Shown: piece after piece, positions 16,304-21,435 of the stretch
Layout: each line of letters begins with the position of its first letter
How positions within the stretch are numbered: position 1 is the first letter of the stretch
Assembly: GCF_003997495.1 (NCBI RefSeq)
Contig: NZ_RZRU01000001.1
Coordinates: 1 to 64,000, forward strand
Direction of reading: 5' to 3'
Length of the DNA: 64,000 nucleotides
Source of the DNA: Mesorhizobium sp. M7A.F.Ca.US.008.03.1.1
GTDB lineage: Bacteria > Pseudomonadota > Alphaproteobacteria > Rhizobiales > Rhizobiaceae
Notes under the pieces: model-generated
Database searches by the model: none
The model's input: only the letters and a program-made list of their open reading frames with translations
What the model was told of the DNA's origin: nothing
Program-made: the position numbers and the translations under genes

Positions 16304-19300
16304 CTATTCCGCGAGCACACGGGTCGACGGAAAAGCGACCTCGACCAGGGTGCCTTCGCCAGGTGTCGAATTGATGGTGAACCGGGCACGGTTGGCTTCC
16401 ACCATCGCTTTGGTCAACGGCAGTCCAAGCCCGGTCCCGTCGCCGCGTCCGCGCTTCAGGGCGTTGATCTGCTTGAACGGCTTCAGCGCCTGCTCGATCT
16501 CGGCATGGCTCATGCCGATGCCGGTGTCGCGCACCCGCATGACGACGTCGCCCGACGTCTCATAGGCGGTCGAGACGATCACCTGGCCGCCGGCCTGGGT
16601 GTAGCGGATGGCATTGGACAGGATGTTGAGCGCGATCTGGCGCACGCTGCGCAGGTCCGCCACCACTTCCGGCAGCCGCGAAGCGAAGCTGGAGCGGATG
16701 ATGACCCGTTCGCGGTTGGCCTGCGGCTGCATCATCGCCACCGTCTCGGCCAGCGTGTCGTTGAGCGACACCGCCTCATAGGCCATCTCCTGCTGGCCAG
16801 CCTCGATCTTGGAGATGTCGAGCAGGTCGTTGACCAGGTCGAGCACATGATTGCCCGAGCGGTTGATGTCGCGCAGGTAGTCGCGGTAGCGGTCGTTGGC
16901 GACAGGTCCGAACTTCTCGTCGACCATCAGTTCGGAAAAGCCGATGATGGCATTGAGCGGCGTGCGGATCTCATGGCTGATGCGGGCGAGGAAATCGGTC
17001 TTCTGCGAGGACGCGCGCTCGGCCACCGCACGTGCCTGCGTCAAGTCCTCTTCGGCCCGTTTCCACTGCGTGATATCGCGAACGACGGCGCAGAAGCCGC
17101 TGTCGTTGGGCAGCCGGCCGATGGTCATGAACAGCGGAATGAAGCGTCCTTGCGATTCGCGCCCGATCACCTCGCGGCCGTCATTCATGACACTCGCCAC
17201 GCCGGGCTCGGACAGCCCATTGAGATAGTCGCGTGCCGCGCGCTGGCTTTCGATGGCAAACAGCGAGGCGAACGGCTTGCCGGTCACATCGTCGCTGTCG
17301 AAGCCGAACAGTGCTTCGGCCGGCCGGCTGATCGATCGGATGGTGCCGTCACGGCCGATCAGCACGACGCCGTCGGTGGCGGTGTCGATGATGGTGCGCA
17401 TCTCGGCGATGCGCGCCTTGAGCTCGGAAATATCCGGCTGCGTCTGCTCGTCGCCAACCGCATGCAGGCTCGCCGGCGCATCATCCTCGCCGGAGCGTCG
17501 CACGACCAGCATCAGCGCCTTGCCGTCGCGCCAGGGGACAGAGCGCAAAATGGCCTCGATCGGGAATTCCTGTCCATCACGCGTCTTCAGCCGCAGCGCG
17601 CGATCGGTGCCGTCGGAAACGCCGTCGTCGGCATAGGGGTCGGCAAACAACGCGCCGAGGCCGCCCGCATCCGCCAGATCCTCGAGCGCCTCGTAGCCGG
17701 TCAGGCTGAGGAATTCCTCGTTCGCATAGTGCAACTGGTCCCCGGAATGGATGAGCAGCGGCACGGGCAGCTTGCCGAGCAGCGACGTGTCCGGAGCCTT
17801 GTGCTCATCTCCGGCGGAAAACGCCGACGGCACGAACCCTTCGGCCTTGAGCGGCGGAACCTGCAGGCGAGGGCGCTCGACGCGTATTTCCGCAGCGTCG
17901 CCCGCATTGACGGTTTCCTCGGTAACCGCCTGCTCGTCGGGCGACGCGGCTTCCTCGTCGGACTGCGCCCAATCCTCACTGTCTTCGGCATCGCGAAAAT
18001 CTGCTGACGTCATGCTGTCGTCATCGAGGACGTCATGTGTCGCGCCAGCGGCTTCAGGCTCTTCGCCGGGCGAAACGGCAGGCGTGTTCTCTGGTTCCGC
18101 CGCCACCGGGCCACGTTCGTCATCTTGGCCGGCATAGTCGAGCAACGAGCCCGGCACATTCATTCCCGGGGAGGCTTCACGAGCCGCTTCGTCCGGGTGA
18201 CCGTCAAGCCGTGCCAGATCCTGCTCGTCTTCGGCATCGGCATCGAATGGCTCGACCGGTTCGTTCTCTGGCCCTGACGCAGGGATGCCGTCGGTGCGAA
18301 ACGGGTCGTCGGACGCCCTGACCGGAGCCTCGGCCTCCGCTGGCGACGCCTCCGCAGTCTCAGTCTCTGGCGGCTCGACCGGAGCACTATCCTTCTTCAG
18401 CCGCTCGCCGATTTCGCGGAACGCGCTACGTTCCAGGGTGGACAGGCCCTTGTCGTTGGCTGGCTGGCGATGTTCGGCGAGCCGGATCACCTTGTCGGCA
18501 AAGCGCCGCTCCTGTTTCGGCACGATGGTCAGCGCCGGCACCTCGCCCTTGAACGGATCCGATGCCTGAGGACCCTCGGCCTTGGCATCCTCGGCGTTCG
18601 GCTGTTCGGGCGCGGGTTGGATGGCTTGCGGGTCCGGCGTTGCCGGCGCCTGGCTATTGGGCACCAGCGCCATGCCGATGGCCTCCGGATCGACGACCGC
18701 GTCGCTGGCGCGGGCGACGCCGAAGCCGCGGAAACCCTCGAAGGCGCGGCTGCGGCCGTAAACAGGCAGCGCCGCCAGGTCGACCGGTATCCTGAGATCG
18801 GTGCCGACGACCGGCCACAGCACGGAGCGCCCGGACCAGGTATCGCGCCGTTCCAGGAGCCCCGATATCTCGCCGGAGGGGTCGAGGCCGAATGCAGCGG
18901 CGACATCCCTGAAGCGTCGGCCGATCACGTCGGCCGCCGGCCTGCCGACGATATCGGCGAATTCCGGCGACAGCGCGCTGAACTTGCCTTCGGCATCGGT
19001 GCGCCAGACGAAGCGCACCGGCGCCGCTGCGCGGTCTATCGCCGAGACGGTCGTTGGCGTGGCCGCGGAGGTGGCCTGGACTTCCAGGGCGGCCGGCTCT
19101 CGAGGCGCTTCAGGTTCGGATGCGGCAGGTCGCGGCGCCTGTTGCCCTCCGTCCTCGCCGGCGTTGAAGTACCAATGGTCGTGCTGCGCGGGCGTGCGCT
19201 CTGCTGCCGGCTGATCGCTGTTGGCAGCCGTCGGCGTCTGCCCGATCGCGGCGGCGATCTCATGCGGCTGCGATGCGGCGATGTCGTCGACCGGCTGCGA

Positions 19301-20080
19301 GGCGCCTGGTTCGTCGGTCGGTGTCTCGCGACCCTGTTCCGGCTGGGAAGCCGCGTCGCCAGCAGGCGCCGCCTCGGCAATGGTTTGCGTAGGATGTTCG
19401 CCCGCAGGCGCTGTGTCGTCGAGCTGGTCCTCGTCGATCACCACGAGCAGATGCCGCTCCTCGGTCAATCTTGCCAGCCCCGCCGGGTAGGAGGCCGTGC
19501 CGCCGGGGACAAGGCGCTTGATGATGCGGTCGCTCTCGGCTGCGACGTCGGCAACCAGTGCCGCCAGCGTCTCCGGCAGGATACCCAGTGCCGAAAATCC
19601 TTCCGAGGCCGCCTCGACGTTGCCCGCGGCATCGACAAAGGCGATAAAATGACCATCCTCGGTGAAGCCGCTAATGGCGCGCGCGGCGATTTCGCCGGCA
19701 CTACGTGACCCTGTCTGAGCCGCCGGCACTGCCAGCATGATCGCCTTTTCGGCGTCCGGCATGGTCACCGCACTGGCCAGGAAGCCGACTGCGCGGCTGG
19801 TCATGCCGGTCGCCAGCCGCACCATGATGGCGCGGTCACTGCCAATCTCGGGAAATCCGTGGGTCGCCATGATCTGGCGCCTGGCGATCACGGGCAACTG
19901 CGCCGAGGCGCCGATGATCGCCTCGATGTCGGGATAACCGAACATCGCGGCTCCTGGCCCATTGGCCCAGATCACCTGCTCCAGATCCGCCGACAGGATC
20001 GCGATCGCGTCACCTGCGGCAAAGCGCTGGCGGACCGCGTCGAGCACGGCGACATCGAGGAAGGAATATTCGGACGGCAT
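16304..20080 (-). CDS. PdhS-like multi-PAS sensor histidine kinase
   Basis: This 1258-residue cytoplasmic kinase has no evident membrane helix. It has an N-terminal sensory domain (about 10-120, DAIAILSADLEQVIWANGPGA), a PAS domain near 340-455, and PAS domains near 769-870 and 887-1010. The HisKA domain carries the phospho-His at about 1036 (RISHEIRTPLNAIIGFSE). The ATPase domain has NILSNAIRYT, DTGIGM and GTGLGLPLTKAMVEANRA. The last motif and the domain order match the PdhS/DivJ/PleC kinases that act on DivK and so on the CtrA cell-cycle circuit. Between the PAS domains are long Ala/Pro/Glu/Asp-rich linkers (about 190-330 and 460-765), probably disordered. The ATG at 20080 is preferred over a GTG six codons upstream. 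Confidence 0.85.
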   Translation of the reverse strand: MPSEYSFLDVAVLDAVRQRFAAGDAIAILSADLEQVIWANGPGAAMFGYPDIEAIIGASAQLPVIARRQIMATHGFPEIGSDRAIMVRLATGMTSRAVGFLASAVTMPDAEKAIMLAVPAAQTGSRSAGEIAARAISGFTEDGHFIAFVDAAGNVEAASEGFSALGILPETLAALVADVAAESDRIIKRLVPGGTASYPAGLARLTEERHLLVVIDEDQLDDTAPAGEHPTQTIAEAAPAGDAASQPEQGRETPTDEPGASQPVDDIAASQPHEIAAAIGQTPTAANSDQPAAERTPAQHDHWYFNAGEDGGQQAPRPAASEPEAPREPAALEVQATSAATPTTVSAIDRAAAPVRFVWRTDAEGKFSALSPEFADIVGRPAADVIGRRFRDVAAAFGLDPSGEISGLLERRDTWSGRSVLWPVVGTDLRIPVDLAALPVYGRSRAFEGFRGFGVARASDAVVDPEAIGMALVPNSQAPATPDPQAIQPAPEQPNAEDAKAEGPQASDPFKGEVPALTIVPKQERRFADKVIRLAEHRQPANDKGLSTLERSAFREIGERLKKDSAPVEPPETETAEASPAEAEAPVRASDDPFRTDGIPASGPENEPVEPFDADAEDEQDLARLDGHPDEAAREASPGMNVPGSLLDYAGQDDERGPVAAEPENTPAVSPGEEPEAAGATHDVLDDDSMTSADFRDAEDSEDWAQSDEEAASPDEQAVTEETVNAGDAAEIRVERPRLQVPPLKAEGFVPSAFSAGDEHKAPDTSLLGKLPVPLLIHSGDQLHYANEEFLSLTGYEALEDLADAGGLGALFADPYADDGVSDGTDRALRLKTRDGQEFPIEAILRSVPWRDGKALMLVVRRSGEDDAPASLHAVGDEQTQPDISELKARIAEMRTIIDTATDGVVLIGRDGTIRSISRPAEALFGFDSDDVTGKPFASLFAIESQRAARDYLNGLSEPGVASVMNDGREVIGRESQGRFIPLFMTIGRLPNDSGFCAVVRDITQWKRAEEDLTQARAVAERASSQKTDFLARISHEIRTPLNAIIGFSELMVDEKFGPVANDRYRDYLRDINRSGNHVLDLVNDLLDISKIEAGQQEMAYEAVSLNDTLAETVAMMQPQANRERVIIRSSFASRLPEVVADLRSVRQIALNILSNAIRYTQAGGQVIVSTAYETSGDVVMRVRDTGIGMSHAEIEQALKPFKQINALKRGRGDGTGLGLPLTKAMVEANRARFTINSTPGEGTLVEVAFPSTRVLAE

Positions 20081-20219
20081 GCGCTTGGCGGACCTCACGG
20101 AGCGGCGATTTTGCAGTTAACGCTTTGTTAATAAAAGCCGGAGGCGCGAAGGTCCACAAGCCAGAACGTGCAAAGGCTGGAATCTGGGCTCGTGGTTAAC
20201 GGCCCAAAAGAAATTTATG

Positions 20220-20249
20220 GTGCACTGCAACAAAGATATTGCAATGCAC
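20220..20249. promoter_or_regulatory. Candidate PhaR operator upstream of the phasin
   Basis: GTGCACTGCAA (20220-20230) and TTGCAATGCAC (20239-20249) form an inverted repeat matching at 10 of 11 positions, with an 8-bp spacer. PhaR, the PHB-responsive repressor of phasin genes in alphaproteobacteria and beta-proteobacteria, binds TGCA-rich sites of this kind. The site is 80-110 bp upstream of the phasin start, inside the expected promoter. Confidence 0.6.
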
Positions 20250-20328
20250 AAAATTTGCCTTTATATTGCCATCATACATGAACGAGACGGCTTTCTGTCA
20301 AAGCCGCTGCCGCTGAAAAGGATGGAAA

Positions 20329-20787
20329 ATGTCCAGGACCAAGACCGCCGAGACGATCGAAAACGTTGAATTCCCGAGCTTCGACGCTTCCAAGGCCACT
20401 GACCAGATCCGCGCTTTCGCCGAAAAGGGCGTTGAGCAGTCGAAAGAGGCCTATGCCAAGCTGAAGACCGGCGCCGAGGAGACCCAGAAGGCTCTGGAGT
20501 CGACCTACGAGACCGCCAAGTCCGTTTCCAGCGACCTGTCGCTCAAGACCATCTCCGCTTTGCGTGCCAATGCCGAGGCCGGTTTTTCCCACCTCGAAGC
20601 CCTGATCGGCGCCAAGTCGCTGTCGGAAGTCGTCGAGTTGCAGACCGCCTTCCTGCGCAAGCGCGTCGAATCGACCGTCGAGCAGGCCAAGGACTTCCAG
20701 GCCGTTGCCTCCAAGGCGGCCGAGGACGTCTCCAAGCCGATCAAGACCGCCTTCGAGAAGGCGATGAAGGAAATCAAGGTTGCCTAA
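20329..20787 (+). CDS. Phasin family protein (PHB granule-associated)
   Basis: This 152-residue, almost wholly helical protein has the phasin pattern. The N-terminal segment is polar, then FDASKATDQIRAFAEKGVEQ and LKTISALRANAEAGFSHLEA form amphipathic helices, and the C-terminal region is KP-rich (EDVSKPIKTAFEKAMKEIK). Phasins coat polyhydroxybutyrate granules and control their size and number. The ATG follows an AAGGATGG ribosome-binding site. The candidate PhaR operator upstream supports the assignment. Acetoacetyl-CoA synthetase 4.4 kb away belongs to the same PHB/acetoacetate metabolism. Confidence 0.9.
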   Translation: MSRTKTAETIENVEFPSFDASKATDQIRAFAEKGVEQSKEAYAKLKTGAEETQKALESTYETAKSVSSDLSLKTISALRANAEAGFSHLEALIGAKSLSEVVELQTAFLRKRVESTVEQAKDFQAVASKAAEDVSKPIKTAFEKAMKEIKVA

Positions 20788-20793
20788 CATTTG

Positions 20794-20847
20794 CGCATGA
20801 TCTGAAGATGCAACAAAAGGTCGCATTTTCCTAAAAACGATCATGTG
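20794..20847. repeat. Degenerate rhizobial palindromic repeat (GCATGATC...GATCATG)
   Basis: GCATGATC near 20795 and GATCATG at 20839-20845 form the ends of an inverted repeat with an A/T-rich centre. The end sequence GCATGATC is typical of palindromic mosaic elements common in rhizobial intergenic regions. The inner stem is poor, so this copy looks decayed. It lies directly between the phasin stop and the sRNA promoter region. Confidence 0.4.
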
Positions 20848-20859
20848 TATGATGGCAGC

Positions 20860-20981
20860 CATCAAGAAATGCCCGGTGAGTAGAACCTCCTCCCTCTGCT
20901 CTCCGGGGTGACCAGCCAGCACCTCCTCCCGCTGGCTCGTAACAGGAAAAGGCCGGCACCTCCTCCCGCCGGCCTTTTTCT
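20860..20981 (+). ncRNA. sRNA with three CCTCCTCCC hairpin loops (cuckoo/CcsR type)
   Basis: Three consecutive hairpins each expose an ACCTCCTCCC loop. Hairpin 1 (20872-20907) pairs CCCGG, GAG and AGA with TCT, CTC and CCGGG. Hairpin 2 (20914-20937) is AGCCAGC/GCTGGCT. Hairpin 3 (20951-20974) is GGCCGGC/GCCGGCC and runs into TTTTT as the terminator. This is the signature of the alphaproteobacterial cuckoo (CcsR) sRNAs, whose loops resemble the anti-Shine-Dalgarno sequence and are thought to bind proteins or ribosome-binding sites under stress. TATGAT at 20848-20853 is a possible -10 element, giving the 5' end used here; that end is an estimate. Confidence 0.85.
20947..20981 (+). terminator. 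Terminator hairpin of the CCTCCTCCC sRNA
   Basis: AAAAGGCCGGC pairs with GCCGGCCTTTT around ACCTCCTCCC, followed by a T-rich tail. The hairpin serves both as the third motif-bearing stem and as the Rho-independent terminator. Confidence 0.9.
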
Positions 20982-21157
20982 TTGTCCGTCGCCCGGTCCT
21001 TGCCTGCGCTCTTGCTGGGCAAATGCCGCGCCGATGTGGGGAAGTGCCCTTTGCTTTCCAAAAGCCTTGAATTAGAATCCATAAGCCCGTAAGGACGCAT
21101 CGCCGAACGACAGAGCGGTCGGGACGAGCTTTCTGTTTCGATCCGCTCAGGCAACGT

Positions 21158-21234
21158 GCCGTTGTAGCTCAGATGGTTAGAGCGCCGGATTGTGGATCCG
21201 GAGGTCGCTGGTTCGATCCCAGCCAACGGTACCA
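21158..21234 (+). tRNA. tRNA-His (anticodon GTG)
   Basis: The 77-nt cloverleaf is complete, with acceptor GCCGTTG/CAACGGT, D-arm AGCTCAGATGGTTAGAGC, anticodon arm CCGGA-TTGTGGA-TCCGG with anticodon GTG at 21192-21194, T-arm GCTGG-TTCGATC-CCAGC, and encoded CCA at 21232-21234. The acceptor has no G-1: the first pair is G1:U72 and the discriminator is A73. That is the derived tRNA-His identity known from many alphaproteobacteria, whose HisRS recognises it. The 3' end abuts a decayed gene fragment. Confidence 0.97.
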
Positions 21235-21237
21235 TAA

Positions 21238-21435
21238 ATAGAAATCATGGATGATGGCACCCGTCTTTGCGCACGCCTCGCGCGCGGATGCCTGCTTCGT
21301 GCGGGAGCAGGTCGGCAAGGTCGAGGATCGGACAGTATTTCCGGCCAACAGGATCAGACTGCAGCCGGGATATGTCTCAACCAGCCGCATGGCCGTCGCC
21401 AGGCCGACGATGCCGCCGCCGATGACGCAATAGTA
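21238..21435 (-). pseudogene. lhgO: Fossil of L-2-hydroxyglutarate oxidase (internally deleted)
   Basis: Read on the minus strand, the start encodes YYCVIGGGIVGLATAM followed by RLVETYPGCSLILL, the FAD-binding N-terminus of the LhgO family. About 30 codons in, a different frame gives DLADLLPHEAGIRARGVRKD, and a further 1-nt shift gives IHDFYL, which together match the C-terminal part of the same family. The intervening ~330 codons are missing. What remains is therefore a deleted, frameshifted remnant. It ends within a few bases of the tRNA-His 3' end, suggesting past recombination there. Identification is by recalled family sequence. Confidence 0.7.

Follow-up and report, generated by a model that had tools for sequence, protein, structure and literature searches.

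What is a three-hairpin anti-Shine-Dalgarno (aSD) RNA doing directly behind a phasin gene, and under whose control is it made? RNAs of the NfeR1 type occur abundantly and in several copies, and they have ties to nitrogen metabolism and nodulation. Together with the cuckoo/CcsR RNAs, Sinorhizobium NfeR1 belongs to the ar14 family (Rfam RF02344). Within the window analyzed here, the whole 64-kb stretch of DNA, the Rfam covariance model returned an ar14 match at 20868-20983 on the plus strand that scores 75.6 bits (E 8e-12; cut-off 58.8 bits) and covers the full-length model, positions 1-123. Three hairpins are predicted in this strand, each exposing ACCUCCUCCC in its loop, and the fold has a minimum free energy of -64.2 kcal/mol (z = -6.1), with 0 of 200 shuffles equally stable. 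Inspection of the window for CCTCCTCCC reveals three exact matches, all inside the RNA (Table 1) and each with an A directly 5' of it. Whole-window dinucleotide shuffles yield a mean of 0.65 such matches across 64 kb, while the real copies lie within 82 bases. Hairpin 3 is made up of GGAAAAGGCCGGC-ACCTCCTCCC-GCCGGCCTTTTTC and ends in a T-rich tract. A simple terminator scan does not report it, probably owing to a limit of 8 on loop size, against 10 in this hairpin. Judged from sequence and predicted fold, the RNA is a genuine ar14/NfeR1/cuckoo family member, of a kind already known, with three hairpins, CCUCCUCCC unpaired in every loop and variable stems. A first-pass annotation of this DNA had described three stems exposing a common loop motif, the last of them a terminator, in an RNA of cuckoo/CcsR type that a covariance search could confirm. 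The stems, the motif and the family assignment all hold, and the terminator is likely; its span of 20860-20981 had the locus right and began about 8 bases too far 5'.

Table 1 Features of the phasin-ar14 locus (window coordinates).
Feature	Position	Strand	Basis
PhaR-box-like site TGCAGTGCACCA, 5' of phasin	20218..20229	-	Exact match to TGCRNYGCASMA
Sigma70-like phasin promoter, TTGCAA-17-TATATT	20239..20267	+	Consensus scan; sole promoter-like site in 20100-21250
PhaR-box-like site TGCAATGCACAA, overlaps -35 element	20240..20251	+	Exact consensus match
Phasin, PhaP-type PHB granule protein, 152 aa	20329..20787	+	PF09361, TIGR01985; match in 61/61 genus genomes
Mesorhizobium-only spacer with conserved block TGCAACAAAAGGTCGCA (TGC-N11-GCA, about 20808-20824)	20788..20867	+	73/78 named Mesorhizobium loci
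ar14/NfeR1/cuckoo-type three-hairpin anti-Shine-Dalgarno RNA	20868..20983	+	RF02344 75.6 bits, fold z -6.1, covariation
Hairpin 1, loop ACCTCCTCCC, motif 20886-20894	20872..20907	+	Motif search, fold, covariation
Hairpin 2, loop ACCTCCTCCC, motif 20922-20930	20914..20938	+	Motif search, fold, covariation
Hairpin 3, loop ACCTCCTCCC, motif 20959-20967; likely intrinsic terminator of phasin transcript	20944..20983	+	Motif search, fold, covariation, T-rich 3' end
tRNA-His(GTG), conserved 3' neighbor marking syntenic position	21158..21234	+	ARAGORN; adjoins phasin in most family genera

Covariation was analyzed for 28 base pairs in 26 divergent phasin-linked copies, with 500 shuffles. Across these copies 96.8% of cells are paired, and changes on both sides occur in 13 of the 28 pairs. 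Compensatory cells number 42 versus 7.8 in the shuffles (0/500), and this signal is lost when pairing partners are slid. The loop motif is nearly invariant in the same copies. This is the pattern left by selection that preserves the shape of the stems and the sequence of the loops. The first-pass annotation had staked its reading on close relatives not losing the loops while the stems stay, and overall they do not. Loop 2 alone is gone, in three basal Mesorhizobium (Root157, 61-13 and Root552; loci L285, L286 and L292), which keep stem 2 without its CCTCCTCCC loop and retain the other two loops, as redundant loops would allow.

These patterns bear on whether the hairpins are mainly a stabilizing or terminating 3'UTR of the phasin mRNA, with a motif that acts in cis or decorates the terminator. 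Such a role would fit hairpin 3 as terminator and the plain terminator found at the same place in non-carrier genera, but one hairpin suffices for termination, and three identical 9-mer loops kept amid compensatory stem changes argue for selection on the loops. The phasin SD, AAAAGGAUGG, is likewise a poor partner for the loop motif, and we regard this explanation as improbable. Self-targeting of the phasin mRNA was considered separately and rejected, since the phasin SD lacks complementarity to the motif, and the long predicted duplex merely melts the hairpins.

The association with phasin extends across the genus. The chromosomal phasin gene is followed by at least one aSD hairpin in all 61 Mesorhizobium genomes examined; three aSD cores are present in 55, two in five (one of these cut by a contig end) and one in a single genome. 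All three exact motifs occur in 73 of 80 named Mesorhizobium loci, and the nearest named phasin loci, from M. ciceri and other Mesorhizobium, are 97-99% identical. Hairpins are absent behind the Mesorhizobium phasin paralogues (L096-L101). Among 47 other Rhizobiaceae genera (in the GTDB sense), at least two aSD hairpins follow the phasin gene in 18, one in five and none in 24, and most of the hairpin-bearing loci are flanked by phasin and tRNA-His. Genera whose phasins are 46-58% identical, putatively the Sinorhizobium/Rhizobium-like side, have a plain terminator instead of hairpins, and hairpins are absent from all 28 phasin loci examined in the order's other families. In the phasin tree, the Sinorhizobium/Rhizobium-like genera fall on one side of a branch with 99/92 support and all rows with at least two hairpins on the opposite side; 19 RNA-less genera are set apart from the rest, with an interior that is mostly unresolved. 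Since hairpins are lacking both in other families and on the Sinorhizobium/Rhizobium-like side, we infer the polarity that plain termination is probably ancestral and that the RNA was gained within Rhizobiaceae, with later losses. Within the clade that carries it, several genera have only a reduced form of the RNA or none at all, and it is thus not indispensable. These losses, together with the redundancy implied by several ar14 copies in the genome studied here, are what would be expected of a decaying, functionless ar14 duplicate at the phasin site. However, the three-hairpin form is kept in most genomes of the genus and across genera, with covariation, which makes such decay highly improbable.

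We then turn to expression. The gene upstream of the RNA had been called a phasin, and both PF09361 and TIGR01985 identify it as one, where a CIN1-type locus would carry a short DUF1127 gene. Its promoter is marked by PhaR-type sites. The published PhaR consensus is TGCRNYGCASMA (PMC6201568), and the only two exact matches in the 64-kb window both lie at the phasin promoter, around the -35 element, the sequence arrangement expected of a PhaR regulon member. The consensus precedes 108 of 109 related phasin genes. In S. meliloti, two PhaR palindromes flank the -35 element of phaP1, and PhaR binds and represses this promoter (PMC12542648). Conserved phasin synteny and the PhaR boxes strengthen the earlier suggestion of a PHB context, as far as expression is concerned. 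Divergent from phasin, at 16304-20098 on the minus strand of the window, lies a gene for a 1264-aa PAS/HisKA sensor kinase resembling PdhS; its NF041593 score is good, yet below the NF041593 cut-off.

The RNA could instead be a free-standing ar14 sRNA that, like NfeR1, is driven by its own promoter in the 80-nt spacer and that phasin merely adjoins. A sigma70 promoter of its own drives NfeR1, and some of its residues are conserved across ar14 promoters (PMC7143759). The conserved ~65-nt spacer that only Mesorhizobium has before the RNA holds a TGC-N11-GCA block, which matches the NtrC-type motif of the nfeR1 promoter (PMC10746234). At the level of sequence this is only a resemblance to the NtrC site, although the spacer could hold a weak or unusual promoter. 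Against an NfeR1-type locus, which has its own sigma70 promoter with an LsrB box, a consensus scan found no promoter-like site between phasin and RNA, and inspection of 20788-20867 found no LsrB box (TGCA-N6-GCAT). In other genera, moreover, the Mesorhizobium-type spacer is absent and the RNA still adjoins phasin, so that the linkage is independent of the spacer. The first motif there lies about 28-48 nt after the phasin stop, and the first hairpin is so near the stop codon that it leaves no room for a separate promoter. We therefore consider a free-standing sRNA unlikely. Taken together, the lack of a promoter-like site and the 28-48 nt distance in other genera make the RNA most simply a part of the phasin 3'UTR, in which case it would be co-transcribed with phasin. 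The RNA has a conserved GAATACCCG 5' edge, and this edge, with the short spacer of other genera, is consistent with CcsR-type maturation. The extra conserved spacer of Mesorhizobium may add a second input.

The explanation we favor, and hold to be fairly probable, is an ar14/NfeR1-type trans-acting sRNA that derives from the phasin 3'UTR, is under PhaR/PHB control and blocks ribosome sites. Its position in the phasin tail suggests a translation blocker made when the cell stores carbon. Under this scheme, the PHB-sensing repressor PhaR would hold down the phasin promoter in this species until accumulating PHB titrates it and phasin mRNA is made. The 3' end of this mRNA, comprising the three hairpins and the terminator, would be cut free near the GAATACCCG edge or would act without being released. 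Through three mutually redundant CCUCCUCCC loops it would base-pair with ribosome binding sites resembling GGGAGGAG and repress translation; genes for solute uptake are the most likely targets, as for NfeR1.

A genome-wide search for candidate targets found the pattern GGGAGGAG-N3-10-ATG 38 times, versus 5 for the reversed pattern. Transport components account for 9 of 17 ORFs of at least 90 aa with a GGGAGGAG SD versus 3 of 16 with AAGGAGG (Fisher one-sided p = 0.046), an enrichment that is small, post hoc and common to all ar14 copies, and that for this last reason says nothing specific to the phasin copy. The nine comprise six solute-binding proteins (including NMT1 and TctC types), two permeases and one ABC ATPase. 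As a sequence-based prediction, the enrichment agrees weakly with the bias toward transporters reported for NfeR1.

More tentatively, the locus may be a PHB-gated brake in which granules titrate PhaR and one transcript yields both the coat protein and an anti-Shine-Dalgarno sRNA with multiple targets, which lowers nutrient uptake. An NtrC-like nitrogen input would have been added in Mesorhizobium, and the whole would have arisen in Rhizobiaceae by replacing a plain phasin terminator.

The genome as a whole (G000, 6.5 Mb) contains four ar14 copies above the cut-off: the phasin-linked one, one behind a LacI-type regulator gene and a tandem pair behind DUF1127-type ORFs. The second lies about 120 nt 3' of the LacI-family gene (L003 1501-1619, contig C35). 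At the tandem locus (L001 1280-2250; minus strand of contig C68, about 250.4-251.4 kb), a pair of DUF1127-type ORFs of ~46 aa, one of them Pfam-confirmed, stands in tandem, with two ar14 RNAs directly behind. The first-pass annotation had stated that in Rhodobacter cuckoo-type RNAs follow a small DUF1127 gene, and this locus on another contig of the same genome agrees; its separate existence makes the phasin copy an additional kind of locus. A fifth Rfam match (contig C22, 37 bits) was rejected as a further copy, as only a CCCTCCCGG terminator is present there.

PhaR-consensus sites were also seen elsewhere in the family. Upstream of the tandem locus, TGCATTGCACAATTTGCAT matches the LsrB box (TGCA-N6-GCAT) as well as the PhaR consensus. 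Among 120 phasin-unlinked ar14 loci, 16 have an exact PhaR-consensus site (mostly TGCACTGCACAA) no more than 260 nt upstream, where about 1 is expected from the genome-wide rate (L030, L103, L105-L108, L110-L113, L117, L119, L120, L122, L127). We do not claim these matches as proof of PhaR control over the ar14 family, as TGCA-rich sites also fit the published LsrB box, and the two boxes may overlap or be confounded upstream of ar14 loci.

Why a genome should keep several ar14 copies with identical loops is a question to which the phasin-wired copy offers a testable answer, namely the same seed with a different trigger. If true, nitrogen-fixing symbionts would have a direct connection between carbon storage and the translational control of nutrient uptake. 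The RNA belongs to a known family, whereas the phasin-tail arrangement is apparently undescribed: we found no description of it in the literature searched, whose reach ended short of the original cuckoo-family descriptions, and priority is uncertain.

Comparison with known systems places the phasin copy among three relatives. S. meliloti NfeR1/Smr14C2 shares the three hairpins, CCUCCUCCC in every loop and a final hairpin that terminates, and it represses mRNAs via three redundant aSD loops (PMC10746234). It differs in being driven by a dedicated sigma70 promoter that carries LsrB and NtrC sites (PMC10746234), where the phasin copy has no evident promoter of that type; Sinorhizobium/Rhizobium-like phasins, in turn, lack the RNA. 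MmgR and SisA-D (ar8 sRNAs) are also small RNAs with an aSD-like stretch; PhaR/AniA represses MmgR, which has an effect on phasins and PHB (PMC12542648, PMC7143759, PMC12559287). In contrast to the phasin copy, these belong to another family with another structure, have their own promoters and lie outside the phasin 3'UTR. The cuckoo RNAs at CIN1 loci, and CcsR1-4 with ccaF1 of Rhodobacter sphaeroides, are likewise RNAs with aSD loops that lie in a protein gene's 3'UTR, as proposed here, and for CcsR1-4 an origin by processing of the ccaF1 3'UTR, in which RNase E takes part, has been demonstrated (PMC8625941, PMC10253847). The host gene sets them apart from the phasin copy: at those loci an RpoHI/RpoHII promoter drives a gene for a DUF1127 RNA-binding protein, and here the gene encodes a PHB granule protein and has PhaR boxes.
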